Assembly: GCF_034479555.1 (NCBI RefSeq)
Contig: NZ_CP140151.1
Span: 2,914,001-2,978,000, forward strand
DNA length: 64,000 bases
Reading direction: 5' to 3'
Source: Chromohalobacter canadensis
GTDB lineage: Bacteria > Pseudomonadota > Gammaproteobacteria > Pseudomonadales > Halomonadaceae
In this document: piece by piece, positions 5,228 through 35,865 of the stretch
Numbering within the stretch: the stretch's first letter is position 1
Layout of the letters: each line of letters begins with the position of its first letter
Translations under genes and position numbers: made by a program
Notes under the pieces: generated by a model
What the model was told of the DNA's origin: nothing
The model's input: the letters and a program-made list of their open reading frames with translations, nothing else
Databases searched by the model: none

Positions 5228-6244
5228 TCAGGCGACGGCGCTTGCAGTGTCGAGCTCGCGTACCTTGGCCAGTGCTTCATCGAACACCTCGAGCCCGGCG
5301 CCGTCGCGGTGGGCGTTTTCCGACAAGTGACGTCGAAATTGGCGTCCCCCTGGGCAACCCTGAAACAGGCCCATCAGGTGGCGGGTGACGTGATTGAGCT
5401 TGGCACCGTCAGTCAGGCGTTTGTCGATATAGGATCGCATGGCGCGCGCTGCATCATGCCGGCTTTTGACGGTAGAAGGCGTGCCATAGAGCGCGGCATC
5501 CACGCCGGCCAGCAGCCAAGGGTTCTGGTACGCCTCGCGCCCGATCATCACGCTATCGACCTTTTCAAGCTGCGCCTGGCAGTCATCCAGCGTTTTGATC
5601 CCGCCATTGATACCGATATGCAGATCGGGATGCTGCGTCTTGAGGCGATGCACGCGAGGGTAATTGAGCGGGGGAACGTCGCGATTTTCCTTGGGCGAGA
5701 GCCCTTCTAGCCAGGCTTTACGAGCATGCACAATGAAGACCTCGCAGCCGGCATCTGCCACCGTGCCGATGAAACGTGCCAGATCGGCGTCCTCGTCTTG
5801 TTCATCGACACCGATGCGGCACTTGACCGTGACAGGGATCGATACCACGGCCTGCATGGCGCGTACCGCTGCCGCCACCTTGGCGGGATGCTCCATCAGG
5901 CAGGCGCCGATCAGGTTGTTCTGTACCCGATCGCTCGGGCACCCCACGTTCAAGTTGACTTCATCGTAGCCCCAGGCTGCAGCGATCGCCGCGCATTCCG
6001 CCAGTGCAGCAGGGTCGCTGCCGCCTAGTTGTAGCGCCACCGGATGCTCCACGTCGCTAAACCCTAAAAAGCGCTCGCGGGGCGAGCCATGCAGGATCGC
6101 TCCAGTCGTGACCATCTCGGTGTATAGCAGCGCCTCGCGGGTCAGCGTACGGGCGAACGCGCGGTAGTCGCGGGTCGTCCAATCCATCATAGGAGCGACG
6201 GAGAAGGTTCTATCTAGCGTGTTGCGCTTTTTCCTAGTGTTCAT
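5228..6244 (-). CDS. dusA: tRNA-dihydrouridine(20/20a) synthase DusA, 5' end supplied by the integrated element
   Basis: A 338-residue FMN enzyme that reduces uridine 20/20a in the D-loop of tRNAs. It shows FSVAPMMDWT at the N-terminus, the LLYTEMVTTGA motif, the catalytic Cys in NLNVGCPSDRVQNN, and GINGGIKT for FMN phosphate binding, all characteristic of DusA. The first about 17 codons (6191-6244) lie on the element side of the attachment core, so this ORF is a hybrid: the native 5' end is found at 19563-19640. The codons for FSVAP differ between the two copies while the residues are identical, so the element restores the reading frame. Its promoter now lies in the 130-base spacer shared with the integrase gene. 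Confidence 0.95.
   Translation of the reverse strand: MNTRKKRNTLDRTFSVAPMMDWTTRDYRAFARTLTREALLYTEMVTTGAILHGSPRERFLGFSDVEHPVALQLGGSDPAALAECAAIAAAWGYDEVNLNVGCPSDRVQNNLIGACLMEHPAKVAAAVRAMQAVVSIPVTVKCRIGVDEQDEDADLARFIGTVADAGCEVFIVHARKAWLEGLSPKENRDVPPLNYPRVHRLKTQHPDLHIGINGGIKTLDDCQAQLEKVDSVMIGREAYQNPWLLAGVDAALYGTPSTVKSRHDAARAMRSYIDKRLTDGAKLNHVTRHLMGLFQGCPGGRQFRRHLSENAHRDGAGLEVFDEALAKVRELDTASAVA
6177..6190. repeat. attL core (14-bp direct repeat)
   Basis: GTCCAATCCATCAT inside the dusA coding sequence (codons for MMDWT on the minus strand). The same 14 bases occur at 19567-19580. Sequence to the left continues as dusA; sequence to the right belongs to the element. Confidence 0.9.
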
Positions 6245-6296
6245 GGGCTTTCCTGGGCACTAGGCCTTTCCAGATATGCCGATTTATACATACTTT

Positions 6297-6360
6297 TTGC
6301 TACGTTTTGCAGCGTGGTTTGCTACGAATCTGCTACGATGCTTCCAGTAAATTTGCTACA
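6297..6360. repeat. Integrase arm-type sites, left end (TTGCTACR repeats)
   Basis: Four direct copies of (T/C)TGCTAC(G/A) at 6297-6304, 6319-6326, 6330-6337 and 6353-6360, in the spacer between dusA and the integrase gene. The second and third are 11 bp apart, one helical turn. A matching pair with the same 11-bp spacing lies near the right end (19514-19532). This fits arm-type binding sites for the N-terminal domain of the tyrosine integrase; the role is inferred. They also overlap the likely promoters of both dusA and int. Confidence 0.65.
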
Positions 6361-6374
6361 CGGAAGCGATCTCG

Positions 6375-7472
6375 ATGGCCACTATTAGTAAGCGTAAACG
6401 AAAGGATGGGAGTGTCGCATACACTGCCCAGATTCGCATTATGCGGAAGGGCCAAAAGGCTCACTCCGAGGGGAGAACCTTTCCCAAGAAAGCCATGGCG
6501 GAAGAGTGGGCTAAGCGCCGCGAGCTTGAGCTGATGAGCCCCGGTGGCCTTCTCACCGCGAAGTGGCGAGGAGTGAAGCTGGAGGATGCCATTGAGCGCT
6601 ACCTACACGAGTTTGCCCGAGACGCTGGCCGCTCGAAGCGAGCCACCATACAGCAGTTGCAGCGCTTTCCCCTTGCGCGAGCTCAAGTTACCGACCTGAC
6701 GAGTGAGCAGATCGTAGAGCATGCCGTCATGCGCCGTAATAGCGGCATCAGGCCCTCGACGATCAACCAGGACATCACGTGGCTGGGCATAATCCTCAAG
6801 ACGGCAGCAGCAGCATGGAAGATGCCGGTGGAGCTCAATGAGTTCGAGTCGGCAAAGGTGCTACTACGTAGCAAAGGGCTGATTTCTCGCTCTGGATCTC
6901 GTGATCGGCGGCCTACTGCTGAGGAAGTCGAGCTGATCCGAACCTACTTCCGTCGCTCGCAGTTGATTCGGCCGAGCGCGATCATCCCCATGGAAGACAT
7001 CATGGACTTCGCCATCGCCTCCTCGAGGCGTCAGGAGGAGATCACCCGTCTCACCTGGGAGGATCTCGACGAACAGGCGATGACCTGCTGGGTACGTGAT
7101 GCCAAGCATCCTCGGCAGAAATGGGGCAACCACAAGCGCTTCAAGCTGACTCGGGAAGCGATGGCCCTCATCAAAAGGCAGCCTCGGATCGCAGGTGAGG
7201 AGCGGATTTTCCCCTTCAATGGAAAATCTATAGGGACTCGGTGGAGAGCGGCAACGGCTGCCTGTGGCATCGAAGATCTACGCTTCCATGACCTTCGGCA
7301 TGAGGCAACGTCGCGCCTGTTCGAGGCAGGCTATGAAATCGTCGAGGTTCAGCAATTCACGCTTCACGAAAGCTGGGATGTGTTGAAGCGCTACACACAC
7401 CTTCGTCCCGAAAACCTTCAGTTGAAGGGTGAGGGTGCCGACATGGTGCCGGCGGCCGAAAGCAAGGCATAG
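6375..7472 (+). CDS. int: Tyrosine site-specific recombinase (integrase) of the dusA-inserted element
   Basis: A 365-residue tyrosine recombinase that should integrate and excise the element at dusA. Residues 1-60 form a basic arm-binding domain, about 65-165 the core-binding (SAM-like) domain, and the remainder the catalytic domain. Visible catalytic residues are Arg in SSRRQEEITRL (about 219), a Lys in the AKHPRQKW stretch, the box II HDLRH (305-309), a His/Trp in LHESWD and the nucleophile Tyr in LKRYTH (about 340). CGGAAG precedes the ATG. The gene is divergent from dusA and its upstream region holds four TTGCTACR repeats that probably bind it, suggesting autoregulation. No recombination directionality factor is certain; the AlpA-like gene at 15313-15594 is the best candidate. 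Confidence 0.93.
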   Translation: MATISKRKRKDGSVAYTAQIRIMRKGQKAHSEGRTFPKKAMAEEWAKRRELELMSPGGLLTAKWRGVKLEDAIERYLHEFARDAGRSKRATIQQLQRFPLARAQVTDLTSEQIVEHAVMRRNSGIRPSTINQDITWLGIILKTAAAAWKMPVELNEFESAKVLLRSKGLISRSGSRDRRPTAEEVELIRTYFRRSQLIRPSAIIPMEDIMDFAIASSRRQEEITRLTWEDLDEQAMTCWVRDAKHPRQKWGNHKRFKLTREAMALIKRQPRIAGEERIFPFNGKSIGTRWRAATAACGIEDLRFHDLRHEATSRLFEAGYEIVEVQQFTLHESWDVLKRYTHLRPENLQLKGEGADMVPAAESKA

Positions 7473-7856
7473 AGAGTCCGTAAATTGCACGCGTTTCCGC
7501 CTTCTTGCTCGCCCTGGCCATGTTTTTTGCTCTCGAACTCACATGAATGGGCTCTAGATAGCCATCGCGCACGCCAGCCTGCTCGAGATTCTTCCCTGAG
7601 TACCGAAAAAGTGCATAAATCCGCATAAATCCTTGCAGCCTCAAAACCCATGTCGAGCCCAGCAACGGCGCGGCCTGGCGCCGTAGTGCATGAGTGCATA
7701 AAAATCGACACGTTTAGCGCGCAGGCGGGGCGGGGTGTCGACGGCGCGCGGCGGGGCGCGGCGAGGGTGGAGGGGGTGGTCAGGGGCAGTCACGAAAAAA
7801 GCCCCGCGAAGTCGCGGGGCGAAGCATCGATCGCGCTTGGTGCTGTCGGCTATGGC
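7473..7856. other. Non-coding stretch between int and the tape measure gene, with a G-rich segment
   Basis: No convincing gene. It holds CATAAATCC twice in tandem (about 7612-7630), GTGCATAAA twice (about 7610 and 7690), and a strongly strand-biased G-rich segment at 7721-7795. That segment contains AGGCGGGG (7723-7730), a string that also occurs in the cohesive-end sequence of P2 and P4 as I recall it. A terminator for the leftward operon ends the region. The packaging-site idea is only a hypothesis. Confidence 0.5.
7795..7820 (-). terminator. Rho-independent terminator of the element's leftward operon
   Basis: On the minus strand GCCCCGCG and CGCGGGGC pair (8 bp, extended by one A-T) and are followed by six T. 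It lies 37 bases past the tape measure stop codon. Confidence 0.85.
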
Positions 7857-10691
7857 TCAGTCGATATCGTGGAACGCTGAGCGCTTACGCGCGGCGGCGT
7901 CGCGGCTGGCGTCGGCCAGGGCGCGCTCGACCTCGGCGCGCACGTAGCGGGCGAGGGCCTGTTCGTCCATGCCGGGGCTGGCATTGACCTCGATATTGAT
8001 GCCCCCTTGAATGTTGACGCCGCCCCCACCGCCGGGCGATTGAAGTGGGGCGCGTGTGTCGATGGGGACATCGTTGGCGATGGGCATCGCGGCGGCAGCA
8101 GGCATTGCGGCGGCATCGGGCATCGCGGCGGCAGCGGGCAGTGTGACCGCGCCCAGGGCCATGCCGGCGCCGGCGCGGGTGACGCTCTTGGCAATCTGCG
8201 CGATGCGCCGGGCGGGCTCGTTGCGCTGGGCATCCAGACCCTGGTTGAGTCCGTCGATGGTGTAGCCGCCGAACTGGGCGAATACGCGACTGGGTGAATG
8301 CATATCGAGCACGCCAGCGAACCAACCTTTTACGCTGCTGGCGATTCCGGTGACTTTGTCTTTCAGCGCGGCGAGCTTGCTGGTGAGCCCGCCGATCAGG
8401 CCATCGACGATGAACCCGCCTAGAGATTTGAATTTGTCGGGAATGTCGACCCCTAGCTTTTCGAGTGCGGCGGTGATGCCTCGGTAGAGCAGGCCAATGG
8501 GCGACCAGTCGGCCAGTAGTCGCATGACGCTGCCGATGCCGCCGGAGAACGCGGCTTTGATGTCGGCCCAGCGCTGGGCAAACCAGCCGCTGATGGAGCC
8601 CCAGTTCTTGTAGATCAGGTAGGCAGCGCCGGCGAGGGCGGCCACGGCGGCGACGATGCCGAGGATGATCCACGTCATTGGGTTTGCTAGAAGAGCGACC
8701 CCGGCCCGGCCGATGGCGCTGGCCAACGTGACGAATCCCTTACCCAGGCTCACCAGTGCATTGCCGAGCATCGGCAGCGCCCGCGTCGCTAACGCGTGAG
8801 CATGAATACTAACGGTGCGGAAAGCGCTTCCCATCCAGTTCGCGGCTTGCCCAATCGCGCGAAAACCTCCTTTGGTAAGTTTTTTCAGCGCACCGGCCAT
8901 GCTTTGCGTCATACCTTTCCCTACGGCCCACAGGATATCCCCGAAGGCGCGTAGTCCAAGCGTTACCCCGCTGACCGTTTTCCAGACGCCTTTAAGCGCA
9001 CTAATTAGTGGCCCTTTTGCTTGACGACCGGTCCACTTCATCGACTTTCCTAGCCCTTCCATCGCTTTTCCGCCGCCGGCTAGGCCGCCGATGGCGGTGA
9101 CTAGTGACAGGACCGAGCCGATAGTCTTGCTGGCGAAGAGGGCGGACATGATGATCGCTAGGTTATCGAACCCGCCGACCATTTCTGCCACGCGTTGAAC
9201 GATGATCGCTGACGTGCGCGCGAATTCGGCGAGACCCTTGGCACTCTCGACGATTAATGGCAGTACATCGCGTAGGCCTGAGCGGAAATCTTTCGCGAAC
9301 TGCTGGACCTGGTCGCGATTGGTTTTCACCCAGCTACTGAATTTTTTGAACAGGCCAGCGAGCTCTGGAGCCAGCTCGCGGCCCAGAATGTTGCGGACGC
9401 CTTTCAAGGCGCCAGTGGCCCCACGCCAGGCGCGCATGTATTCCTGAGCAGCTTTGGTGTCTTGGGCACCGAGCGTCACGCCCAGCTCATCGGCTTCGTT
9501 GACAAGACGCCGTATTTCATCGGCACTCGCCCCGGCGAATTCGGCTAGTTGTTCGCCGCCTTGTCCGCCGAATAGTTCATCAACGATACGTTGGCGCGCG
9601 GCGACGTTTTCCACCTCGCGGAGCTGACCCAGCACCATGCTGAATAGCTCCCCAGTGTCGTTGGAGGCGGCTTCAAGCTGTTCGGGGCTTAGTCCTAAGC
9701 GTGTGAAGGCTTCCGCACCGGGACCTTTGCCGGTCGAAGTAAATTCATCCGTTCTGAGAGAAAGCTCCTTTAGAGCATCGGTCATAGCGTCGTTCTGTAC
9801 GCCGAACTGACTCCCTGCATATTGCAGTCGCGATAGCTGTTCAGTAGCTATCCCAAGTCGGGCCGACCATTGGCGCACCTCTTCGCCACTTGACGCGAAG
9901 TTGTGACCGAGGCCGCCAACGGCGGCGGTAGCTACGCCGCCGGCGATTCCGGCGCCGGCGGCTAGGCTGCGCCCGTTATTCAACACGGCGCCCCCACGGG
10001 AACGAATGCCGGATAGCCGCTCACGCACGTCCTTGATGCGCTCAAGGCGTTTTTTCTGGCGCTCCAAGGTCTCGTTGAGGCGTTCTTCCTGAGTGCGAAG
10101 ATCTCGCGCCGCGCGGGTCATGTCCTCGGTACTGACACCAGCTTCGTCGAGGCTGCGTTTTATACCTGAGAGGCGGTCTTGGTGCCCCTGCTGGGCACGG
10201 TTCAGATTTTTAACCTGGTCCTCGGCATGACGCGAGCGATCACGATATGTCTTGATTGCGCGGCTGGATTTGTCAAAGGCTTGCTGTTGTGACGTTAGGG
10301 CGATACGTGCCTTTTCTAACTCTCCACTGAGCTTCTTATTTGGCTCGGTAGCTTGGGCAACTTGCTTAGCGAGCTTGTCATATTGCCTTCGCGTGGATGT
10401 CAGGCTGGCTTTGATATTGACATGGCGCTCACGTTGCCCTTCCAGGGCTTTGGAATACTCCTTTTGCTTCTCAGTCATCTCATCGATGGTGCGCTGGTTG
10501 CCGCGCATGGCCCAGCGGGTCTGACGATAAGCGCTGACATCCTTCTGTTGCTTGTTGAGATCGCGCAGTTGGTCTTTGCTGGCCCTTATAGCCTCGGCGG
10601 TTTTGCCGCTGCCCTTAGTGATCTTCTTGAGGGGGCTGGTGATCTTGTCGATCGCTTGAAGCCTAACTTGAAGGCTCAGATCCTTCGCCAT
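7857..10691 (-). CDS. Phage tail tape measure protein (P2 gpT-like)
   Basis: A 944-residue protein with the hallmarks of tape measure proteins of contractile-tailed P2-like phages: a start MAKDLSLQVRLQAIDKIT, a long Lys/Arg/Glu/Gln coiled-coil region (about 20-240), a Gly/Ala-rich hydrophobic section with membrane-like segments (about 640-710, including ANPMTWIILGIVAAVAALAG), the motif LDMHSPSRVFAQFGGYTI, and an Ala/Met/Pro-rich tail. P2 gpT is 815 residues; at roughly 0.15 nm per residue this protein would set a tail of about 140 nm (inference). The start at 10691 has AAGGAGG upstream and sits just after the preceding stop. In true P2-like phages this gene is flanked by gpE and gpU/gpD; here none is present. 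It is the only tail gene seen in the element and is uninterrupted. Confidence 0.9.
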   Translation of the reverse strand: MAKDLSLQVRLQAIDKITSPLKKITKGSGKTAEAIRASKDQLRDLNKQQKDVSAYRQTRWAMRGNQRTIDEMTEKQKEYSKALEGQRERHVNIKASLTSTRRQYDKLAKQVAQATEPNKKLSGELEKARIALTSQQQAFDKSSRAIKTYRDRSRHAEDQVKNLNRAQQGHQDRLSGIKRSLDEAGVSTEDMTRAARDLRTQEERLNETLERQKKRLERIKDVRERLSGIRSRGGAVLNNGRSLAAGAGIAGGVATAAVGGLGHNFASSGEEVRQWSARLGIATEQLSRLQYAGSQFGVQNDAMTDALKELSLRTDEFTSTGKGPGAEAFTRLGLSPEQLEAASNDTGELFSMVLGQLREVENVAARQRIVDELFGGQGGEQLAEFAGASADEIRRLVNEADELGVTLGAQDTKAAQEYMRAWRGATGALKGVRNILGRELAPELAGLFKKFSSWVKTNRDQVQQFAKDFRSGLRDVLPLIVESAKGLAEFARTSAIIVQRVAEMVGGFDNLAIIMSALFASKTIGSVLSLVTAIGGLAGGGKAMEGLGKSMKWTGRQAKGPLISALKGVWKTVSGVTLGLRAFGDILWAVGKGMTQSMAGALKKLTKGGFRAIGQAANWMGSAFRTVSIHAHALATRALPMLGNALVSLGKGFVTLASAIGRAGVALLANPMTWIILGIVAAVAALAGAAYLIYKNWGSISGWFAQRWADIKAAFSGGIGSVMRLLADWSPIGLLYRGITAALEKLGVDIPDKFKSLGGFIVDGLIGGLTSKLAALKDKVTGIASSVKGWFAGVLDMHSPSRVFAQFGGYTIDGLNQGLDAQRNEPARRIAQIAKSVTRAGAGMALGAVTLPAAAAMPDAAAMPAAAAMPIANDVPIDTRAPLQSPGGGGGVNIQGGINIEVNASPGMDEQALARYVRAEVERALADASRDAAARKRSAFHDID

Positions 10692-10692
10692 A

Positions 10693-11055
10693 TCAGCCGC
10701 CTCCTTGGGCGACCAGCGCCTCGGCATCTGTATCGGTCATAGCTTCCAGGTCGCGTCGCAGGCGCTGCCGATCCTCGGCGGCGAGGGTGTGGAAGCCGTG
10801 ACCTTCGCTTTTTTTCGGCGGCGGTAGCGAGATGCTGTTCGCCATACATTGCTGACGGGCTTCCCAGGCATCCAACTGAAGCAGTTCCATCAGCGTTGAG
10901 GATTTCTCGCGCAAGCCGATGAGCTTCTCGCGGGCTTCTTCCTGGTCGGTCTCGCCAGCGTGGTCCAGTGCAACTAGGGAGCGCTCAATTTTGAGCTGTG
11001 CCTTGCGCAGCCGCTTGCAACGACGGCGGCACTGCATGTAATTCTTCCGGCTCAT
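10693..11055 (-). CDS. Hypothetical phage protein upstream of the tape measure gene
   Basis: A 120-residue basic, helical protein that I do not recognise. The N-terminal 35 residues are rich in Arg/Lys and Cys (MSRKNYMQCRRRCKRLRKAQ), the middle looks like a coiled coil (EEAREKLIGLREKSSTLMELLQ), and the end contains an acidic stretch. Its position immediately before the tape measure gene, with the two reading frames separated by one base, is that of the tail assembly chaperones (gpE/gpE+E') in P2-like phages, but the sequence does not resemble gpE and I see no frameshift signal. A role as chaperone or partner of the tape measure protein is inference from position alone. Confidence 0.65.
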   Translation of the reverse strand: MSRKNYMQCRRRCKRLRKAQLKIERSLVALDHAGETDQEEAREKLIGLREKSSTLMELLQLDAWEARQQCMANSISLPPPKKSEGHGFHTLAAEDRQRLRRDLEAMTDTDAEALVAQGGG

Positions 11056-11955: not shown

Positions 11956-14409
11956 TCATGCATGCTGCGTGGAAAAAGGTGTAGTAGGGGCCGGGGCCTC
12001 CCACAGCCCCGCTGCGATCAATCGCGCCTCCTCGGCGCTCATCTGGCCGCCCCGCGGGCTACGCGTACGCTTGCGGTTGATACCAAGCATTAGGCTTGAC
12101 CAATTTGAGCGTTCCTGACGTTCGGCGGGGGGCTCGAAGAACATCGCGGCCAGGCGAAGGGTAGTCTCGTCGTCGATGCCGAGTCTGCGGCGCTGCTCAG
12201 CCTCGGCGCTCGAGATCAGCAGTTGCCACAGGGCCTGCGACTCGGCGGTGACGGGGTTTTGAGGTGCCGGCCCCTGGTCTTCGACCGGCCCAGTGGCTTC
12301 CTCGAAGCTTTCCAACTCCGGAGGAAAGTACTCAGGTGCGCCCCATTCTGGCTGCGGAGCGAACTTCTGGTGGAGGGCGGCTCGGAGCTGGTGTTCATAC
12401 TCCTCGAGGCCTTCCATCTCAGCCCTGACTTCGGTGCTGGCCCGCCATGCTTTGTATCGCTTTTCTTGGTCATGGGCCTCCTGCGGGCCTGGCTGTCGGG
12501 GCTCGATATCAGGCCCCGTACAGTTATTCACACGAGTCCAAGGCTCCGCGACTGCGTCGCTCCGCTGTCCTCCAGCCTCCGTTGGCTTGATTTCCCAGCG
12601 ATAGACACGGGTCATAAAAGATGCCTCTCCGGTATCGCTAGTGACAGTGATGCCAATGGTTGCCTCGACGGGCTCGCCGTAAATTCCGAGCTTCTCCAGA
12701 TCGACACGAATCTCGCCGCTATTTGGGTCGACGTGCTCACCCTTCGGGTCGAGGCGAGTCATTCGCCACGGGCGAGCTGGACGCTCGGTCATGGGAACGC
12801 AAGGCCCGCCACACAGCTCCAGGAAATTGTCCCAGCGGCTGCCGTTCGCGGCGCGTCGTAGGTCGTGGAGGATGGCCAGCGCCTCTGGGTCGGGCTTGGT
12901 AGCCGCGATCCAGTCTTCGAAACAGGAGGCGGCGAAGGAATCGTCATCGGGATCGCGCAGGCGGCGCAGCTCGCGCCACACCGTCACGCTCGGCAAGCCA
13001 AAGAACTGAAACTGACGGATGCCGTGGACCGATGCCCAGGCGGCGATCCGCGGCGCTGCGACATCCATTGGGCGACCATACTGGTCGACCTCGTCGCTAC
13101 GCTGGGTGCAATTGATGTTCTTGGCGACATACTTGATGACGTAGCCGGCGGCGCTACCCTTGGTGGGGTCGATGTGCTCGAACCTGATACGAACATGCTC
13201 CTTGCCGGCGACCTCCTCGGGGTCGATCGACAGGGCATAGCGGCGAAGGGAAGCCTCCAGTGGCTTGATCTGGTCCTCGGCGACCCACAACAGCATGTGC
13301 CAGTGCGGGCATCCGTCGTGATGGGGTTCGACGGTACGAATGCCGTAATAGGCGATACCGTCGCGCTTCAACTTGGCCCGGGCCCGAGTCCATAGCTTTT
13401 GCAGCTGGGCGTGAGCATCACGCGGGGTCGAACCGTTGTATTTAGGGTTGGACTGCCCGCTTTCCTGAAGTACTGCATGCCAAGCACTAGGTAAGGTCCA
13501 GGTGACGAACACTGCACGATGCCCATGGCGATGGGCGAAGGCCTCGGTCTCGCGGATCCGCATCATCGTTTCCTTGAAACGGATGTCGCGGTTGCCCACG
13601 CTCTTTGCGGACAGCTCGGCTAGGGTGTATTCCTGTTCGAACTGGTTGATCGCCGTGGTGCCCTCGAGCATCTCCAGGTTCTCGTTCTGCCGGCGCTGCC
13701 AGCGCTTGAACACCATGTCGCTGACATAGATCCCGGCACGCTTGTGCACTCGGCGCACCATTCGCATGAACTGATCGAGGCGTTGGTTCGCCAGCGTGCG
13801 CAGCTTACGCCGCCACCATGGTGCCGATCCCAACTTGCTTAGTATGACGCGCCGCTGGGAACCGCTCAGGCGCTTGAGCTCGACCACAGGGGCTACGTCC
13901 AGGCTGTGCTTGTGGGCGATCTCTAGTCCTTCGCGAAGGCTCTCGATCTCGGCATCCCGGCTGGTTGGCCATACATGGCGGCGGAAGGTTAATCCGGCGA
14001 GCCTGGTGTCTGCCGGCAGTGCGGGTCGCCAGAAATGTCGGCGACGAGCCTCCGCATAGCCGGCTCGAACTGTTCGGTAATGGCGTTCTTGGGTCGCGAC
14101 GATAGCGTCTGCCTTGGCACGCGCGTAGTCCTCTAGAGCCTCATCCTCGTGGGTCACGTTGAAGGGGCCGAGCATAAGTTGCTTCTGCATAATGCGAAGC
14201 CAAATATTCGCTTCGGCGTTACCGCGATTGCCCGGTTTGCTGTAACCGTGGGTGGTGGCCACTGCCACAGCACCGCAAACAAGATCGTCTGCGACGGCCT
14301 CGAAGCGTTCGAAGATCTGCCGGCGGAACTTCCGGCATTGAGGTGTCCCCATGGCCCGTTCGACCTCACGGGCGGCGCTGACCATCAACGGCCACTTCAT
14401 GGTAGTCAT
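11956..14409 (-). CDS. P2 gpA-type replication endonuclease (HUH rolling-circle initiator)
   Basis: An 817-residue replication initiator expected to nick one strand at the element's origin and start rolling-circle replication. The metal-binding HUH motif is HDGCPHWHMLLW at about residues 366-377, and the paired tyrosines AAGYVIKYVAKN lie at about 421-425, the YxxxY arrangement of P2 gpA (761 residues). The N-terminal half is Arg-rich; the last 200 residues are acidic and look unstructured. GGAGGG stands seven bases before the ATG at 14409; in-frame starts at 14424 and 14400 are less well placed. In P2 the origin lies inside gene A, so the same could hold here. Gene order (A followed downstream by a tape measure gene) is unlike P2, where these genes lie in different operons. 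Confidence 0.88.
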   Translation of the reverse strand: MTTMKWPLMVSAAREVERAMGTPQCRKFRRQIFERFEAVADDLVCGAVAVATTHGYSKPGNRGNAEANIWLRIMQKQLMLGPFNVTHEDEALEDYARAKADAIVATQERHYRTVRAGYAEARRRHFWRPALPADTRLAGLTFRRHVWPTSRDAEIESLREGLEIAHKHSLDVAPVVELKRLSGSQRRVILSKLGSAPWWRRKLRTLANQRLDQFMRMVRRVHKRAGIYVSDMVFKRWQRRQNENLEMLEGTTAINQFEQEYTLAELSAKSVGNRDIRFKETMMRIRETEAFAHRHGHRAVFVTWTLPSAWHAVLQESGQSNPKYNGSTPRDAHAQLQKLWTRARAKLKRDGIAYYGIRTVEPHHDGCPHWHMLLWVAEDQIKPLEASLRRYALSIDPEEVAGKEHVRIRFEHIDPTKGSAAGYVIKYVAKNINCTQRSDEVDQYGRPMDVAAPRIAAWASVHGIRQFQFFGLPSVTVWRELRRLRDPDDDSFAASCFEDWIAATKPDPEALAILHDLRRAANGSRWDNFLELCGGPCVPMTERPARPWRMTRLDPKGEHVDPNSGEIRVDLEKLGIYGEPVEATIGITVTSDTGEASFMTRVYRWEIKPTEAGGQRSDAVAEPWTRVNNCTGPDIEPRQPGPQEAHDQEKRYKAWRASTEVRAEMEGLEEYEHQLRAALHQKFAPQPEWGAPEYFPPELESFEEATGPVEDQGPAPQNPVTAESQALWQLLISSAEAEQRRRLGIDDETTLRLAAMFFEPPAERQERSNWSSLMLGINRKRTRSPRGGQMSAEEARLIAAGLWEAPAPTTPFSTQHA

Positions 14410-14563: not shown

Positions 14564-14770
14564 CTAAACCTCCTTCCCCTTGGCCAACCGGCTTTTGTCG
14601 GCCACGCTGAAACCCTTTGCCGCCGGCGTGCTATGCTCGCCTTTGGTGCGCTGCCAATATCCTTCAGTTTTGATGGCCGTGTTGACCGCCTTCTGTATCG
14701 CTGGCCAGTCGCTGGCGTAGAAGGTTATTCGCTCGTTGAGAATGCTCAGGGTGATGACGCGCTTCGCCAT
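14564..14770 (-). CDS. Small element protein, paralogue of the next gene
   Basis: A 68-residue protein starting MAKRVITLSILNERITF with AAGGAG seven bases before the ATG at 14770. Not recognised. The first 35 residues match the neighbouring 93-residue protein in pattern (TLS, a short strand, then W-A/P-I/L-Q-AV-A), so the two are probably old duplicates. The C-terminus is Lys-rich. It lies directly upstream of the gpA-type gene and may act in replication control; that is only positional inference. Confidence 0.6.
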   Translation of the reverse strand: MAKRVITLSILNERITFYASDWPAIQKAVNTAIKTEGYWQRTKGEHSTPAAKGFSVADKSRLAKGKEV

Positions 14771-14795
14771 GCTGGCTCCTTGCCTTCCGGCATCG

Positions 14796-15077
14796 TTAGC
14801 TTTCAACTGGGTTTATATTCTGGTCGTAGTGCCCCTCCATCGGACGGGCAACCGCGCGGCGATCGAGCCGAGCGATCAACGCCCGACCACCGCCCAACGG
14901 TGACGCCTCTCGTTGCTCGCCCAGGGGAAGATCCTCCAGGGACACGGTAGGATCGGCATTTAGTTGCAGGGCGCTGGTCACCGCCTGGCTGAGCGCCGCC
15001 CACTCGTTGGGATGGATCTCGAGACTGCCGCCGCCCGGGCGGCTCAGAGTCAGCGTCTTGTGGGTCGTGGTGGTCAT
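14796..15077 (-). CDS. Small element protein, paralogue of the preceding gene
   Basis: A 93-residue protein starting MTTTTHKTLTLSRPGGG, with a strong GAGGAG site before the ATG. The N-terminal half (TLS...EIHPNEWAALSQAVTSAL) parallels residues 5-35 of the 68-residue neighbour. The C-terminal half is Arg-rich and polar. Function unknown; part of the leftward operon of small early genes. Confidence 0.65.
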   Translation of the reverse strand: MTTTTHKTLTLSRPGGGSLEIHPNEWAALSQAVTSALQLNADPTVSLEDLPLGEQREASPLGGGRALIARLDRRAVARPMEGHYDQNINPVES

Positions 15078-15087
15078 TACTATCTCC

Positions 15088-15300
15088 TCAGCAATCGGTG
15101 AGATGGGTCATTGCAATGGCCACGCCCAACGGATGTCGGTGGAAGACCTGGCTGCCATTCGGGCGTGGGATCGTCGACAGCTTCTCGGTCTTCACACCGG
15201 CATCTTCCAGTCCTTCCTTGAGAGAAAGGAACATCTCGACGGCTTCGTTCTCATCGCATTCGTGGTCGACGCCGGCGACGTCTACATGGATAGTTCGCAT
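15088..15300 (-). CDS. Hypothetical small element protein
   Basis: A 70-residue protein starting MRTIHVDVAGVDHECDENEA, with TAGGAG seven bases before the ATG. Residues 15-45 are acidic and helical; the end (FHRHPLGVAIAMTHL) has three His. Not recognised. It fits tightly between its neighbours in the leftward operon, which with the good ribosome site supports expression. Confidence 0.6.
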   Translation of the reverse strand: MRTIHVDVAGVDHECDENEAVEMFLSLKEGLEDAGVKTEKLSTIPRPNGSQVFHRHPLGVAIAMTHLTDC

Positions 15301-15312
15301 AGTGGCTCCTAG

Positions 15313-15594
15313 TCAGATGGGGGTGGCACTTTGCTGCGCGGAGGTGCCATGACGCTTCCAGGTTCCAGCGCCCTGGTAGTGGACGCGGCGCGCTTTTAAC
15401 TCCTGAAACCACGCCGCTACTTCTGTGCTCAGAAAGGCCGTAATATGTGCTGACACTTGGACCGGTTCAGGAAACCGGCCGTTGGCCGCCATGTTGGCCA
15501 ACGTGCTGCGTGACAAGCCGGTAATCTCCTCGACCTCCGGCCAGCGCATCAGGCGCACCGTTGCTTGCTCCTCAACTCGCTCGTTCTCGTTCAT
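15313..15594 (-). CDS. AlpA-family winged-helix regulator / excisionase-like protein
   Basis: A 93-residue DNA-binding protein of the AlpA/MerR-like family. The core is RLMRWPEVEEITGLSRSTLANMAANGRFPEPVQV followed by AFLSTEVAAWFQE, the usual helix-turn-helix plus wing layout (residues 14-66). In P4-like elements such proteins activate int expression or act as excisionases, so this is the best candidate for controlling excision. A GAGG motif precedes the ATG, which overlaps the end of another open frame. It sits in the leftward operon, far from int, so it must act in trans. Confidence 0.82.
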   Translation of the reverse strand: MNENERVEEQATVRLMRWPEVEEITGLSRSTLANMAANGRFPEPVQVSAHITAFLSTEVAAWFQELKARRVHYQGAGTWKRHGTSAQQSATPI

Positions 15595-15598
15595 TGCC

Positions 15599-15940: not shown

Positions 15941-15946
15941 CCGAAT

Positions 15947-16165
15947 CTATATGATGGAATGCGGATCCAGGTCTTCACTCGGTGAGGGAACGCCTTGGAC
16001 CAGGCCGCCGGCCTTGTTGATGAGGGCTACCGTCGTCCAGGGCCCAGACTTACCGTAAAAGACGTGCACTCCCTGCTGCCGAAGGCAACGCTCGACATCG
16101 CCGGGTCGTTGATATCCCGTAATTGCTTTCAGGTCGTCGCAGTTGAGTACGTCATGTCGGCACAT
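15947..16165 (-). CDS. DUF4224-type small phage protein
   Basis: A 72-residue protein with the layout of DUF4224 proteins: NCDDLKAITGYQRPGDVERCLRQQGVHVFYGKSG, in which the leading segment 'L-TGY-RP--q---L---G' is typical. Such proteins are common near phage integrase or AlpA genes and are presumed DNA-binding. ATG at 16165 has only a weak GGGAC upstream, and the start is chosen by family length. Function unproven. Confidence 0.6.
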   Translation of the reverse strand: MCRHDVLNCDDLKAITGYQRPGDVERCLRQQGVHVFYGKSGPWTTVALINKAGGLVQGVPSPSEDLDPHSII

Positions 16166-16202
16166 CGCTTCTGTCCCTAGTCGAGAATTGGCAATTGGAT
16201 GC

Positions 16203-16472
16203 TTATCTGGGACGGAATCTCCCGTGATGGGATGCGCGGTAGAGGTCCGATGCATCGGCCGCCAGAATCTGGGCGGCTTGAGCGACGTTGGCCAGGTCGT
16301 GACGATGTAGATGCGTGGCGACCTCAAGGCTGGCGACCGTCTCCAACATGCCGCGAGCCGCCTCCAGTCGTGCCTCGGCGTTGTCGTACAGGGTTTCGGC
16401 ACTGCATGTTTCATCGACTACAAGCGCGGGCTCGTGGCCGAGTTGGTAGGTCAGGGGGGTTAGCTGGGTCAT
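16203..16472 (-). CDS. Hypothetical helical element protein A
   Basis: An 89-residue helical protein (MTQLTPLTYQLGHEPALVVD) with Ala/Leu/Glu-rich C-terminal two thirds. Its ATG overlaps the stop of the upstream gene (ATGA), so translation is coupled. It resembles the upstream 101-residue protein in architecture (short polar N-terminus then two long helices containing LE-A----VG/AS). Not recognised. Confidence 0.6.
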   Translation of the reverse strand: MTQLTPLTYQLGHEPALVVDETCSAETLYDNAEARLEAARGMLETVASLEVATHLHRHDLANVAQAAQILAADASDLYRASHHGRFRPR

Positions 16473-16774
16473 GCGGCTACCTCCCGGCGCACGGCTTCGG
16501 CATTCTCGGCAACATACCGGTGCATGCCGACCGCCTGTTCCTCAACGGCTTCGAGATTCTCGACCACTAGGGCTAGCAGGGCGGCAAGATCGTCCTGATT
16601 GACTTCTACTGTCGGGATCGCGCCGTGCGGTTGGTACTCGACCAGTTCATGCACCAGGGCCAGTGAGCGACGGGCGCGCTGAAGTTGAGTCAGCGCGGTT
16701 TCATCGAGTGCCCACCAGTCACACAGGGCATAGGAACGCAGAGATTTGTGAATCATATCGGCTGCCTCACTCAT
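16469..16774 (-). CDS. Hypothetical helical element protein B
   Basis: A 101-residue protein, start MSEAADMIHKSLRSYALCDW, helical throughout, ending NAEAVRREVAA. It overlaps the PrtN-like gene by 8 bases upstream and the next gene by 4 bases downstream. Pseudomonas-type small phage regulators of unknown function have a similar layout, but I cannot name a family with confidence. Confidence 0.6.
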   Translation of the reverse strand: MSEAADMIHKSLRSYALCDWWALDETALTQLQRARRSLALVHELVEYQPHGAIPTVEVNQDDLAALLALVVENLEAVEEQAVGMHRYVAENAEAVRREVAA

Positions 16775-17027
16775 TTACGGCGGCCCACCACTGGCGAGCC
16801 TCGGCTTTGCGCTGATCCAGGTACCCGGCGAGATCGCCGGCACTGACCAGCCACGGGGACTTTTGCGAATCGACGGCGCGATAGGCTGGCACTGGCAGAG
16901 CCTGGGCGGCAGCGCGGGCACTGGCCGTGCGCGCGTTGACGCCAAAATAGCGCGGCGCGACCTCCTCGAGAGGGATTTCGGCGCGACCGTCGAATTCGGC
17001 GAGCAAGCCAAAGTAGGTAGGTCCCAT
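16767..17027 (-). CDS. PrtN-like transcriptional activator
   Basis: An 86-residue protein of the pyocin activator PrtN family. The pattern TYFGLLAEFDGRAEIPLEEV, then YFG and a helix, then SQKSPWLV-AGDLAGYLDQRKAEA matches PrtN, which in Pseudomonas switches on pyocin genes after DNA damage. The ATG at 17027 follows a run of seven G on the minus strand; a GTG three bases upstream is possible. In this element it may activate the operon or helper-phage promoters (inference). It is coupled by overlap to the next gene. Confidence 0.78.
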   Translation of the reverse strand: MGPTYFGLLAEFDGRAEIPLEEVAPRYFGVNARTASARAAAQALPVPAYRAVDSQKSPWLVSAGDLAGYLDQRKAEARQWWAAVNE

Positions 17028-17030
17028 CAC

Positions 17031-17258
17031 TTACCCCCCCTTTTCGCTGAGTGAGTGGCCAACGTTATCGAGGTTGTCGGCGATTTCCTGAATGAGTTCG
17101 ATGTGGCCTCGTGTTGCAGCGATGTCGATGTGACGGCCGATTCGACACTCTTCCTCTAAGGTGTGGGCCAGATGGCGAAGGGCGAGCTGGCTGGTCCTCA
17201 ACTCGGCGTGGAGCTGATGGCGTAGCCGTGTCTTGGCGGCTTTCAGGTGTGCATTCAT
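17031..17258 (-). CDS. Hypothetical small helical protein
   Basis: A 75-residue His/Leu-rich helical protein (MNAHLKAAKTRLRHQLHAEL...). GGAGG lies eight bases before the ATG at 17258, and the ATG overlaps the stop of the upstream gene. The gene ends in GAAAAGGGGGGGTAA; the seven-G run also serves as the ribosome site of the PrtN-like gene. Function unknown. Confidence 0.6.
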   Translation of the reverse strand: MNAHLKAAKTRLRHQLHAELRTSQLALRHLAHTLEEECRIGRHIDIAATRGHIELIQEIADNLDNVGHSLSEKGG

Positions 17259-17599
17259 CAATGCACCTCCTCGGCTATCGAGGCCGTTGGAGCGGTGGTT
17301 TGATTGGGAGTTATTACAGGGTGGGAGTCGTCGAGCGGGTAGAGCAGCCGCAGTAGCTCGGTGTGCGTGGCTGGGTCGATTGCGCCGAGTACTAGTGCCA
17401 TGCGAGCCATGCCCAGTATCTCTTCACGTTGCTCGGGTCGGCGATTGATTCGGTAGGCCACCAGGCGGGCACCAATGGCGTGGACGGCACGCTGATGCGC
17501 GGAGACCTGACGGTAATAGCGGTGGGCACCAGAATTGCATTCCGGGCAAGAGTTGATAATATCCATGATGTCTGTTCCATCCCAATAGTGTTCGGACAT
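17258..17599 (-). CDS. Hypothetical protein with a CxxC motif
   Basis: A protein of 113 residues if started at the ATG at 17599; a GTG at 17650 (130 residues) and an ATG at 17566 (102 residues) are alternatives, and none has a strong ribosome site. It contains NSCPECNSGAHRYYRQV, a possible half zinc site, followed by helices (EILGMARMALVLGAIDP, ELLRLLYPL). Similar Cys-pair proteins are common in early phage operons. Function unknown. Confidence 0.55.
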   Translation of the reverse strand: MSEHYWDGTDIMDIINSCPECNSGAHRYYRQVSAHQRAVHAIGARLVAYRINRRPEQREEILGMARMALVLGAIDPATHTELLRLLYPLDDSHPVITPNQTTAPTASIAEEVH

Positions 17600-17639
17600 T
17601 GAGGCCCTGGGTGTTGGCGCACCTGGGGTCTCGTCGTTT

Positions 17640-17795
17640 CTAACCGGCACGCTGTGTGCTGTGTTGCATGACTTCCTTCAGTAGCTGATTGATCAACCAG
17701 GTTTGGGGTCGATCATCTGCTTTCGCTTTTGTCTCGATCCAGGCTTTCACCGCGGGCTCTAGCCGGATCTTCATCTGTGGGTCTGTTCGTTTCAT
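17640..17795 (-). CDS. Ribbon-helix-helix (Arc/Mnt-type) DNA-binding protein, 51 residues
   Basis: A short gene on the minus strand whose product starts MKRTDPQMKIRLEPAVKAW and continues with two helices ending LINQLLKEV. The beta-strand TDPQMKIRLE followed by two helices is the Arc/Mnt fold; the protein probably binds DNA as a dimer. It is the first gene of the leftward operon and lies head to head with a paralogous Arc-like gene (17885-18214), both starting with a TDPQ-K-R strand. The spacer has a large inverted repeat (17814-17844). Its position suggests a lysogeny-type switch. Confidence 0.75.
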   Translation of the reverse strand: MKRTDPQMKIRLEPAVKAWIETKAKADDRPQTWLINQLLKEVMQHSTQRAG

Positions 17796-17800
17796 CGTCA

Positions 17801-17844: not shown

Positions 17845-17884
17845 TTTATTGCCGTCAACACCTATGTGGTCCATTATTCACATC

Positions 17885-18214
17885 ATGACGACACAGCAGA
17901 CCGACCCTCAGTACAAACTTCGCATGCCAGCGGAGTTGCGGGACTCTCTCAAAGAAGCCTCGAAAGCGAATAACCGATCTATGAACGCGGAAATCGTTGC
18001 GCGTCTTCAGCAGAGCTTCGAGGTAGAGCATCGCGAGGCTATGTACGATGATGTGCCGCCCAAGCTGATGCTGAAGTTATTGGAAGGCTTCCGTTATCAG
18101 CTGATGGAGCAAATCAAGGATGGCACTGCCGAACCAGGCTTCCCTCACCTGGACCCTGGCTATGTGGAGATAAAAACGGGCCCGGATGAGGATGACTCCG
18201 GCTCTAAGTCTTAG
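17885..18214 (+). CDS. Arc-family ribbon-helix-helix repressor
   Basis: A 109-residue regulator. Residues 7-50 (TDPQYKLRMPAELRDSLKEA then SMNAEIVARLQQSF) form the beta-strand/helix/helix DNA-binding unit of Arc-family proteins; the remaining acidic C-terminus may oligomerise. Start is uncertain: ATG at 17885 matches the family's usual short leader but lacks a ribosome site; ATG at 17864 would add seven residues. It is divergent from the 51-residue paralogue and followed by a strong terminator, so it is probably the maintenance repressor of the element (inference). Confidence 0.8.
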   Translation: MTTQQTDPQYKLRMPAELRDSLKEASKANNRSMNAEIVARLQQSFEVEHREAMYDDVPPKLMLKLLEGFRYQLMEQIKDGTAEPGFPHLDPGYVEIKTGPDEDDSGSKS

Positions 18215-18238
18215 GGAAAAGCCCATCCCGCACATAGC

Positions 18239-18267
18239 AAAGCGCCGCCCATCTGGGCGGCGCTTTT
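18239..18267 (+). terminator. Terminator of the Arc-like gene
   Basis: AAAGCGCCGCCCA pairs with TGGGCGGCGCTTT across a two-base gap, followed by T-rich sequence (TTTTGTTT). It may work in both directions. Confidence 0.85.
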
Positions 18268-18339
18268 GTTTGGGCTCGTGCCTGAGGCTGTCATTGCCGG
18301 TAGGCTGGCCGGTGCCGACCTTAACCAGGAGTAAGCGCG

Positions 18340-18543
18340 ATGAGTGTCAGATGCCCACACTGCGATGAAGGACTCAAGACCCAGCCGGAGAAGCTAGACC
18401 CGGCTCCGATCTATGAGGCGACGACGGTGCTCGCACAGTGTGCCAACTCGTTCTGTGGCTGGGGTGGACATCTGAAGGTCTCGTTGGAGCGGGTCACGAA
18501 GTCCAGCCGTTTGGAAGCCGCCACGGAAGCTACCGACGTCTAG
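18340..18543 (+). CDS. Ogr/Delta-type zinc-finger late-gene activator
   Basis: A 67-residue protein with VRCPHCDEG at the start and QCANSFCGWGGH in the middle: the CPxC ... CxNxxC zinc-binding layout of P2 Ogr and the P4 Delta half-domain, which activate late tail and capsid promoters of P2-like phages. AGGAG lies eight bases before the ATG. It is transcribed alone between two terminators. In a satellite, such a protein could switch on the helper's late genes or the element's own tape measure operon. The zinc-finger reading is direct; the target promoters are inference. Confidence 0.82.
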   Translation: MSVRCPHCDEGLKTQPEKLDPAPIYEATTVLAQCANSFCGWGGHLKVSLERVTKSSRLEAATEATDV

Positions 18544-18550
18544 AAACGCG

Positions 18551-18582
18551 AGCGCCCCGCCGACGACGGCCGGCGGGGCGCT
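18551..18582 (+). terminator. Terminator after the Ogr-like gene
   Basis: AGCGCCCCGCCG and CGGCGGGGCGCT form a perfect 12-bp stem with an 8-base loop, eight bases after the stop. The T-tract is weak (ATCTTGTT). Confidence 0.75.
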
Positions 18583-18659
18583 ATCTTGTTCACACGATTG
18601 ATGTGGTCAATGGCTTGGTCGCGACTCGGGCTCGCCAGCGGCCCTGATGATGGAGAGGG

Positions 18660-18962
18660 TTACACGTGGAAGCCGCGGTGTGTACCGTCAGGCATCTCTA
18701 CATCCAGGCGGACTTTCCCTCCAATGGCCTCAACGTAACGCTTGAGGGAGCTCAATCGGAGATCCTGACCACTTTTCTCCATACCTGCAATGGTCGGCTG
18801 TTTGACGCCTAGAGCCTCAGCCATATCCGCTTGCGTCATTTCGACCAACTGGCGAATTTCCGATAGGCGGAGTTCCAGGAGCATTGCATCAGCTTTCGCC
18901 TTGGCGCGATTGACGAGCTCCGGATTCTCGTTGGCGACGAGTTGGTTCAGTGTACGAGCCAT
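18660..18962 (-). CDS. HigA/XRE-type antitoxin
   Basis: A 100-residue helix-turn-helix protein with LSEIRQLVEMTQADMAEALG, VKQPTIAGMEKSGQD and LRLSSLKRYVEAIGGKV, the usual XRE antitoxin layout that pairs with HigB/RelE toxins. ATG at 18962 has AGGTG upstream; the GTG at 18971 is an alternative. It is the second gene of the pair (toxin first), the HigBA order, and is ten bases downstream of the toxin stop. It probably represses the pair at 19332-19363. Confidence 0.85.
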   Translation of the reverse strand: MARTLNQLVANENPELVNRAKAKADAMLLELRLSEIRQLVEMTQADMAEALGVKQPTIAGMEKSGQDLRLSSLKRYVEAIGGKVRLDVEMPDGTHRGFHV

Positions 18963-18972
18963 AGCTTTCACC

Positions 18973-19314
18973 TCACTTCAGTGACTCCAGGTGGGCAGCG
19001 TACTCCCGGTCTGCCACTGGGATCATGTCATCATAGAAACGCTTATTGCCGCTCTTGTTCCCGGCGCAGAGCAGTACACCTGTCCGCTGAGGATCGAAGG
19101 CGAAGAAGGCCCTTAGAGGCTGGCCCTGGCTCTGAATCCTCAGCTCCTTCATGTTGCGATATTGCGAGCCGTTCACGGTGTCAGCATGAGGACGAGGCAA
19201 CATCGGCCCTCTTTCCTGCAGCATCAAGAGCGCTGCAAGTACGTTCTCCCGGTTGATGTCGTCCAGTGAGAAGTACCACTCTTCAAACGTCTCGGTCTGC
19301 TCTATCGGCCACAT
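18973..19314 (-). CDS. HigB/RelE-family toxin
   Basis: A 113-residue toxin of the gp49-like HigB group: TETFEEWYFSL, a helical LAALLMLQERGPMLPRPHADTVNGS, then NMKELRIQSQGQPLRAFFAFDP and GVLLCAGNKSGNKRFYDDMI, the characteristic KELR, FAFD and KxxxKFY-type segments. These mRNA interferases act at the ribosome. The ATG at 19314 is preceded by GAAGGGTGAA; a GTG at 19329 is possible. Together with the antitoxin it probably stabilises the element. Confidence 0.85.
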   Translation of the reverse strand: MWPIEQTETFEEWYFSLDDINRENVLAALLMLQERGPMLPRPHADTVNGSQYRNMKELRIQSQGQPLRAFFAFDPQRTGVLLCAGNKSGNKRFYDDMIPVADREYAAHLESLK

Positions 19315-19331
19315 TGCTTCACCCTTCACTT

Positions 19332-19363
19332 ATAGGATTAAGGCTATATAGGTTAAATCCTAT
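19332..19363. promoter_or_regulatory. Inverted-repeat operator upstream of the toxin-antitoxin pair
   Basis: ATAGGATT (19332-19339) and AATCCTAT (19356-19363) are exact inverted repeats flanking the AT-rich centre TATATAGG, 18 bases upstream of the toxin ATG. This fits autoregulation by the antitoxin. Confidence 0.6.
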
Positions 19364-19513
19364 TGTCAAGCCGGCGCGGCCTCTGCCCAGATTCCGGCGT
19401 GCCAGCTGTTCGAGAGGTTTTGTGGTGAAGGCTACCAGCGACGTTTAGAACAACCGTGCAGGCGCTGCCCGAGACTCGGAGGGAAAGTGGATCAAGCCAT
19501 TTTCTGTGTGGCG

Positions 19514-19532
19514 TTGCTACGGATTCGCTACA
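19514..19532. repeat. Integrase arm-type sites, right end
   Basis: TTGCTACG (19514-19521) and TCGCTACA (19525-19532), 11 bp apart, in the same relation as the pair at 6319-6337 on the left. They lie 35 bases inside attR. Confidence 0.6.
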
Positions 19533-19562
19533 GAATGTCTGAAAGTCCCGCCGTTTAGGGCT

Positions 19563-19640
19563 TTATGTCCAATCCATCATCGGGGCCACAGAAAATCGGC
19601 GGGCCCGCGCTAGCGAGTCTTTCGCTGATTTTTCAACCAT
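19563..19640 (-). pseudogene. dusA: Displaced native 5' end of dusA
   Basis: A 25-codon remnant with a GGAGAC ribosome site upstream of the ATG at 19640. It reads MVEKSAKDSLARARR followed by FSVAPMMDWT and then TAA, which is element DNA. The FSVAPMMDWT peptide is also encoded at the left end with different codons. This fixes the integration point and shows that the host gene's own leader was exchanged for one from the element. Confidence 0.9.
19567..19580. repeat. attR core (14-bp direct repeat)
   Basis: GTCCAATCCATCAT, identical to 6177-6190. To its right the native 5' end of dusA continues; to its left is element sequence. Confidence 0.9.

Positions 19641-34398: not shown

Positions 34399-35865
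<1,467 letters not shown>

Follow-up and report, generated by a model that had tools for sequence, protein, structure and literature searches.

The dusA locus and the genes of the element

The 64,000-nucleotide stretch of the Chromohalobacter canadensis chromosome analyzed here (the window) contains an element of 13,390 bp, measured from core to core, that is integrated in the 5′ end of dusA (Table 1). The genome that holds it (G000) is a single contig of 3,595,165 bp. An original prediction, made from the sequence alone, had described this element as a probable phage satellite that is complete at both ends and may depend on a P2-like helper phage, and our comparisons support both statements. 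Each end carries the same 14-bp core, GTCCAATCCATCAT, embedded in a 29-bp repeat (83%) of the 5′ end of dusA. We joined the two chromosomal flanks without the element and matched the product against 10 Chromohalobacter genomes, five of which (G006, G009, G010, G012 and G014; 83–92% identity) gave an uninterrupted match spanning the junction, while the match was split in the remaining five, including G000. The arm-type repeats that had also been proposed were not confirmed, and some of the repeated motif falls in the cos region described below.

The dusA site is empty in the five uninterrupted genomes, holds the satellite in G000 and G007 (in the latter as a gap of ~13.4 kb), and is otherwise split in three genomes, all of which possess a P2-type capsid gene. 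The gap measures ~35.2 kb in G008 and ~38.4 kb in G011, and in both it is filled by a P2-like prophage. A prophage of this kind is likely to occupy the site in G013 as well, because the halves of the flank fall on separate contigs, and one of these contains the P2-type capsid gene too. In G009 the site is empty and a P2-like prophage is located elsewhere in the genome. Since gaps at dusA are occupied by either type of element, the satellite and the P2-like phage use one integration site; the window integrase is 85% identical to that of the G008 prophage. The dusA-associated integrase islands likewise insert at this end of dusA, and the main text of the article describing them names neither Chromohalobacter nor Halomonas (PMC4482086).

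Table 1. Features of the dusA-integrated element (window coordinates).
Feature	Position	Strand	Basis or remark
Attachment core, dusA-proximal	6177..6190	+	within 5′ end of dusA coding sequence
dusA-type tyrosine integrase	6375..7472	+	PF00589 5e-17
cos region, helper-type	7712..7759	+	48-bp exact match, G008 P2-like prophage; putative 19-nt cosN 7724-7742
Terminator-like hairpin	7801..7820	-	directly 3′ of tape measure gene
Tape measure protein, 956 aa (944 aa from ATG at codon 13)	7857..10727	-	phrog_28 4e-55
120-aa protein	10693..11055	-	upstream of and overlapping tape measure gene; weak PHROG match E 0.075
Sid-like head-size protein, 269 aa	11117..11926	-	phrog_6165 2.4e-8; PDB 7jw1_E by profile and fold
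gpA-type HUH replication endonuclease	11956..14409	-	PF05840 2.6e-67
Three small ORFs, o80, o93, o70	14564..15300	-	presence in relatives
AlpA-like regulator	15313..15594	-	PF05930 1.9e-10
Excisionase-like protein	15947..16219	-	phrog_1266 1e-15
o89, satellite-associated protein	16203..16472	-	31/33 other Sid-bearing loci, 0/20 P2-like prophage loci
o101, small protein	16469..16774	-	3/6 relatives (L108, L109, G647), plus L117
PrtN/excisionase-like regulator	16767..17030	-	PF11112 5.6e-18; phrog_1300 6.7e-22
o130, satellite-associated protein	17258..17650	-	30/33 other Sid-bearing loci, 0/20 P2-like prophage loci
Short Arc-like ribbon-helix-helix protein	17640..17795	-	phrog_228 2.6e-4
Arc-like DNA-binding protein	17849..18214	+	PF03869 1.9e-15
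Ogr/Delta-like zinc-finger candidate	18340..18543	+	via intermediate ORF of P2-like prophage
xre-relE type toxin-antitoxin pair	18660..19329	-	PF01381 6.4e-8; phrog_3445 'toxin' 1.3e-22; near distal end
Attachment core, distal copy	19567..19580	+	exact 14-bp repeat of 6177-6190

Family scans with Pfam and PHROG, each covering 20 open reading frames (ORFs), bear out much of the predicted gene content. The integrase, gpA and tape measure genes are intact, the AlpA-like, PrtN-like and ribbon-helix-helix regulators are present, the tape measure protein has the predicted 944 residues when read from its later start, and a terminator-like hairpin follows its gene. In gpA, an HWH motif and both tyrosines of YVIKY are invariant in the alignment columns across four satellites, and we take these to be the HUH endonuclease motifs. 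The scans also agree with the prediction in finding no head gene and no packaging, tube, sheath, baseplate or lysis family among the ORFs of the element. A phmmer comparison of the element with 33 P2 and 13 P4 proteins matched only gpA, the integrase and the AlpA/Vis relation; this is no strong negative, because P2 T misses the window's own tape measure gene, and lysA, lysB and lysC were outside the queries. Within these limits, the tape measure is the sole P2 gene for head, tail, lysis or terminase in the element (Pfam, PHROG and phmmer). The same comparison found no match in the element to the P4 alpha primase-helicase, in place of which gpA is present, nor to P4 Psu, to a P4-type integrase or to P4 epsilon, a small and fast-changing gene that could escape such a search.

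The Sid-like protein and the cos region

The protein encoded next to gpA had been put forward as possibly Psu-like. It matches phrog_6165, the product name of which is given to both Sid and Psu in the P4 record and thus cannot decide between the two. However, a 14-sequence profile of the protein (alignment A4) finds PDB 7jw1_E, which is P4 Sid, at E 1e-7, and hhalign assigns the profile to P4 Sid with 90.9% over 204 columns, versus 0.2% for P4 Psu. Distant rows of the profile are themselves direct matches of P4 Sid, and the assignment is hence partly transitive. The predicted structure (pLDDT 88.7) likewise has 7jw1_E as its first Foldseek match (prob 1.00, template modeling score 0.53/0.59, E 0.033). 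By profile and modeled fold, then, the protein is nearer to P4 Sid than to P4 Psu, and the Psu identity was dropped in favor of Sid on these results. Sid and Psu are themselves described as homologues (PMC8628076).

The cos region was found through k-mers common to the sequences that follow the portal gene Q in 18 P2-like prophages; a search with P2's own cos sequence, allowing up to 4 mismatches, detected no site in the element. The element and the G008 prophage (L165) are identical over at most 48 bp, at 7712-7759; in the prophage this stretch lies beside the portal gene Q, and every other exact match between the two is shorter than 18 bp. At the same cos position, L164/L171, L168, L160, L163 and L166 match over 35–38 bp and the satellite contig L117 over 36 bp. 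The P2 cos reads GGCGAGGCGGGGAAAGCAC followed by TGCGCGC and the window cos GGCGGGGCGGGGTGTCGAC followed by GGCGCGC, and because the window letters align with P2 cos we place a putative cosN cut at 7724-7742. At no more than 3 mismatches, the cos core is found in 14/20 P2-like prophage loci and in 23 of 33 Sid-bearing loci other than the gpA-type satellites described below. Of the latter, L108 and G647 have the exact core and L194 a close version of it. Neither this cos region, nor the Sid identity, nor the capsid genes of the relatives had been part of the original prediction.

Relatives with gpA, Sid and single virion genes

A gpA profile searched against 275 Halomonadaceae genomes scored 1618–1669 bits in G000, G007, G023, G046 and G064 and at most 599 bits in all others. 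Two further loci were added, L194 through a scan of viral contigs and G647 through a scan for the cos pattern, which gives seven gpA-type loci consisting of the window and six relatives, that of G007 being a near-copy. A Sid-like gene adjoins gpA in all seven, and a conserved multi-genome block of the kind that the original prediction had proposed to look for does exist. What follows Sid differs. In the window and G007 (L108) it is the 120-aa gene and the tape measure gene; in L124 (G023), gpN, the 120-aa gene and the tape measure gene; in L134 (G064), gpN and gpS (PF05069 1.1e-25); in L109 (G046, Billgrantia desiderata FB2), gpN and a HAD-like ORF (by eye; Pfam below cut-off); in L194, gpN; and in G647, gpN, with a reverse transcriptase gene (PF00078 1.9e-15) nearer the integrase. 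A lone P2-type capsid gene is therefore carried by five of the six relatives, one of which adds a tape measure gene and one gpS. Of the small ORFs between gpA and the AlpA-like gene, o80 is found in 6/6 relatives, o70 in 5/6 (L194 is without it) and o93 in one (L108) as well as in L117.

An alternative would be a P2-like prophage reduced by deletion, as gpA, T, the integration site and cos are common to the element and to the P2-like prophages of the family. The prediction had named relatives with complete head and tail modules as the sign that this copy is merely deleted, and a full head or tail module is found in 0/6. By phmmer, P2 O, M, L, P and Q are in none of the seven loci, and neither packaging nor sheath, tube or baseplate genes were seen in the relatives; capsid types other than gpN were sought in the window element alone (Pfam, PHROG), with no match. 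The same queries find O in 19/20 other gpN loci (within the fetched stretch), and all 20 of these loci sit among P2-like head or tail genes. Conversely, the Sid-like gene, o89 and o130 are in 0/20 P2-like prophage loci, each covered for at most 20 kb and not whole, and they are also missing from the two prophages covered almost end to end, those of G008 and G647. The att-to-att lengths of four satellites are similar (13,390, 14,123, 13,066 and 13,705 bp) in spite of differing cargo.

Phylogeny points in the same direction. Five satellite gpN sequences form one clade (100/99) against 28 P2-like gpN and P2, in a tree that omits L196 (partial) and L205 (the same gene as G647); they are full length, with 59–77% mutual identity and 53–68% identity to four P2-like copies. 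Six satellite gpA sequences also form one clade (100/100), in a tree using 12 of 72 more distant gpA loci. Together with the distribution of Sid, o89 and o130 over the stretches covered, the satellite lengths and the G647 pair described next, these clades lead us to reject decay of a P2-like prophage, which we regard as extremely improbable. Because the window and G007 gpA adjoin the gpN-bearing L109 in the tree, one change suffices to explain the absence of gpN from the window lineage, which is best read as a loss; by this tree the window copy belongs to the branch without a capsid gene, in a family most members of which have one. The gpA of the G647 satellite falls outside the clade of the other six, and hence this replicase has probably been exchanged.

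Helper and satellite are found side by side in G647 (IMGVR_UViG_2636415831_000003, 48,812 bp). The prophage, the far end of which lies beyond the record, has gpA, D, U, T, E, FII, FI, H, I, J, W, V, S, R, X, L, M, N, O, P and Q, with cos at 34391. It is followed by att at 34671, the satellite with a second cos at 47646, and att at 48376. The 13,705-bp satellite carries integrase, reverse transcriptase, gpN, Sid, gpA, AlpA, o89, o101, PrtN, o130, Arc and Ogr-like genes, and its cos region matches that of the prophage at 87% over 327 bp, the core being identical. As a natural helper-satellite pair with matching cos, G647 makes the satellite reading testable. Between the integrase and gpN of this satellite (L205:5043-7971), the reverse transcriptase gene is accompanied by small ORFs, one of them probably membrane-bound (by eye); the region is possibly a retron-type defense cargo.

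Some loci of this group take other forms. L194 (IMGVR_UViG_3300039191_000570) is a viral contig of 11,092 bp with a 127-bp terminal overlap, bearing gpA, Sid, gpN and cos, and also, by likeness to L117, a Rep_3-like initiator. L117 (G153:C3) has 13,452 bp and a 91-bp terminal overlap, and encodes a Rep_3 initiator (PF01051 4.7e-36), an alpha-like primase (Toprim matches below cut-off), a Sid-like protein and cos; a resolvase-like and a toxin-like gene were noted by eye. The terminal overlaps of both contigs fit circular DNA, and L117 is probably a circular, plasmid-form satellite. These two contigs, one with a plasmid Rep_3 initiator and the other with a look-alike, also lend some color to the idea that such elements are genomic islands or plasmid-like elements with phage cargo that is never packaged. 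The cos match and the Sid relation speak against this, and L194 comes from a viral contig collection, so we hold an unpackaged island to be very unlikely. In L109 some regulatory genes lie beyond the gpN end, a layout as would be expected of a circularly permuted insertion, and a serine recombinase look-alike was noted there by eye.

Among 390 genomes sampled at the level of the order, and not by the name Pseudomonas as the original prediction had suggested, only G000 and G007 scored in the range of the gpA satellites. None of 72 more distant gpA loci has a Sid-like gene by phmmer, in a set that is not exhaustive because the pattern scan that yielded it missed L124 and L134. Against annotated plasmids and phages, gpA matched 69 and 324 records, respectively, but none over 80% of its length and none at 60% identity. 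A stretch of Thiothrix sp. UBA5583 (L046) in which P, Q and tail genes were not found has a P4-type integrase, gpN, M, O, a Vis-like gene and gpA within 11 kb.

The tape measure protein and the satellite reading

The tape measure protein was compared segment by segment with 19 tape measure proteins. Its residues 657-830 show 62–72% identity to T from the four P2-like prophages of Chromohalobacter; against the same proteins the figure is 56–61% for residues 831-956 and 41–42% for residues 13-130, but just 17–25% for residues 245-410. The middle is instead 55% identical to the tape measure protein of L176 (G126), which belongs to another tail type. This pattern indicates a chimeric protein with a P2-like C-terminal part and a middle derived from another tail type, and helper-like ends joined to a foreign middle are what incorporation into helper tails would need. 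Tape measure matches across genomes comprise at least those listed here, and a search of viral contigs gave three loci. Tape measure genes resembling the middle of the window protein stand in other contexts in L176, L177, L180 and L182. From gene position alone, the 120-aa protein is a candidate tail chaperone; its gene adjoins the tape measure gene also in L108 and L124.

Satellite-encoded tape measures as such are not new, because they have been described in the PICI-like elements (PLEs) of Vibrio, named after the phage-inducible chromosomal islands (PICIs), in an article that also points to putative others (PMC12987554). According to that article, PLEs build chimeric tails that incorporate their own tape measure, tails differ by 10 nm per 95 residues of tape measure, and deletion of the gene lowers transduction by 96–99.9%. 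At 944 aa the window protein exceeds the 847–882 aa of its counterparts in four Chromohalobacter P2-like prophages, and at the PLE ratio its tails would be about 7–10 nm longer. The article states that no tape measure had been reported from other satellites, yet mentions putative ones in PLE-like elements and in some capsid-forming PICIs (PMC12987554).

We read the window element as an integrated satellite of P2-like phages and give this reading a probability of about 0.82. Helper infection or induction would cause the satellite to excise, after which gpA would initiate rolling-circle replication and the helper terminase would cut the DNA at cos. The DNA would then be packed into heads made small by the action of Sid on the helper capsid protein, although in five relatives Sid perhaps works on the satellite's own gpN. 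Finally, the satellite tape measure would replace that of the helper in tails otherwise made by the helper, producing chimeric tails of altered length. The ratio of element to prophage length at the same site (13.4 kb versus 35.2–38.4 kb) is 0.35–0.38, and that of P4 to P2 is 0.35.

Several observations weigh against this account. No P2-type capsid was found in the window element, elsewhere in G000 or in the G007 genome, and these two genomes thus have no resident P2-like helper. The cos core is missing at 3 mismatches in 10/33 other Sid-bearing loci; of the gpA-type relatives, L109 and L134 have a diverged cos and L124 a weak one. L194 measures 10,965 bp, less than the other satellites. The structure search with the Sid-like protein returned no match under E 0.001, and the 120-aa protein has no Pfam match and a single weak PHROG match (E 0.075). 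The predicted Ogr/Delta-type activator is linked through an intermediate: the candidate matches an ORF of a P2-like prophage (5.8e-8) that itself passes PF04606 (8.3e-8), but it has no direct match in Pfam or PHROG, so that its assignment is indirect. Moreover, P2 lysis queries found nothing in the relatives and equally nothing in 20 P2-like prophage loci, so that lysis genes may be present in the relatives.

Satellites often interfere with their helpers, and the tape measure protein, and gpN in the relatives, might accordingly serve as decoys or poisons that block helper assembly rather than as parts of the virion. A tape measure whose middle departs so far from helper T could well jam assembly. 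However, the close match of its C-terminal part to P2-like T is as expected of a protein that fits the helper tail, the gpN sequences of the satellites are complete and group in a separate clade, and PLE tape measures are incorporated (PMC12987554). We therefore consider a decoy role unlikely.

A P2-type replicase, Sid and single virion genes occur together in one small element, and this joining of P2-type replication to a Sid and cos of the P4 type, with virion parts of the element's own, is best read as a new satellite type. Among the literature matches listed, which comprised titles and abstract openings and covered few subscription papers or preprints, none describes a satellite that replicates by gpA, bears Sid and has a gpN or tape measure of its own. 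Incorporation of the tape measure and gpN would unite head and tail remodeling in one satellite, in which Sid may work on a capsid protein encoded by the satellite itself. More tentatively, and with rather less than even confidence, the gpA-type loci might constitute a new satellite family in which gpA, Sid, a helper cos and single virion genes (gpN, tape measure or gpS) placed in one slot re-engineer the helper head and tail; the window lineage would have lost the capsid gene and may have swapped its Sid for the capsid-less P4-like kind, as if Sid must fit its capsid.

Such an exchange of Sid is unproven. The window Sid is 31–36% identical to that of three capsid-less satellites versus 25–28% to that of three gpN-bearing satellites, and in a tree of 39 rows a single clade of all gpA-type Sids is rejected (p-AU, the approximately unbiased test, 0.0019). 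Once eight rows, mostly long branches, are left out, this clade is no longer rejected (p-AU 0.27). Both trees are without L141 and L142, and the second is also without L194, L117, both L123 rows, L120, L130, L143 and L144. L123 (G128:C4) is a P4-like satellite with two Sid-like genes that fall in different parts of the tree.

P4 is the classic P2-dependent satellite, with an alpha replicase and with shell and tail taken from its helper. Like the window element, P4 and P4-like satellites have a Sid-like protein, an AlpA-like regulator and the cos of a P2-like helper (PMC8628076). The window element differs in its P2-type gpA in place of the alpha primase-helicase, its dusA-type integrase, the absence of a detected Psu and its tape measure gene, to which the capsid gene of the relatives may be added. 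The Vibrio cholerae PLE, compared here by description only, likewise carries its own tape measure with a small gene in chaperone position beside it, but its helper is the lytic ICP1 and not a temperate P2-like phage, as would be the case here, and it differs from the element in Sid-like head control and helper cos (PMC12987554). Capsid-forming PICIs (PMC10690885) resemble five of the relatives in encoding a major capsid protein, but these relatives have only gpN, beside a Sid-like protein, and lack portal, protease and terminase genes. AH14b of Pseudomonas sp. ANT_H14 is also small, has an integrase and an AlpA-like gene and lies beside a larger helper; unlike the window element it has a P4-like primase, its authors found no sid or psu, and its helper is of the headful type, unlike the cos-using P2 (PMC4936722). 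Finally, the P2-like prophages of Halomonadaceae share gpA, T and gpN homologues and cos, and in G008 and G011 the dusA site, but they measure 35–38 kb and carry head, tail and packaging modules, and Sid, o89 and o130 were not found in them.

The Sid-like protein was matched in 36/275 Halomonadaceae genomes, and Sid-bearing satellites thus appear to be common in this family. Single-sequence searches gave no match in viral contigs or annotated phages and two proteins in a protein collection. Of the 33 other Sid-bearing loci, one of which (L141) has just a short Sid-like piece, 31 have an alpha-like gene, 29 a P4-type integrase and 32 an AlpA/Vis-like gene, and the P2 genes N, O, P, Q, M, T, FI and D are found in none. 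The gpA-type satellites share o89 and o130 with these P4-like satellites. P4-like satellites have been described across Enterobacterales in a survey whose searched text does not mention Halomonadaceae (PMC8628076). Halomonadaceae commonly carry P4-like satellites (L110-L144) that have Sid, an alpha primase and a P4-type integrase.

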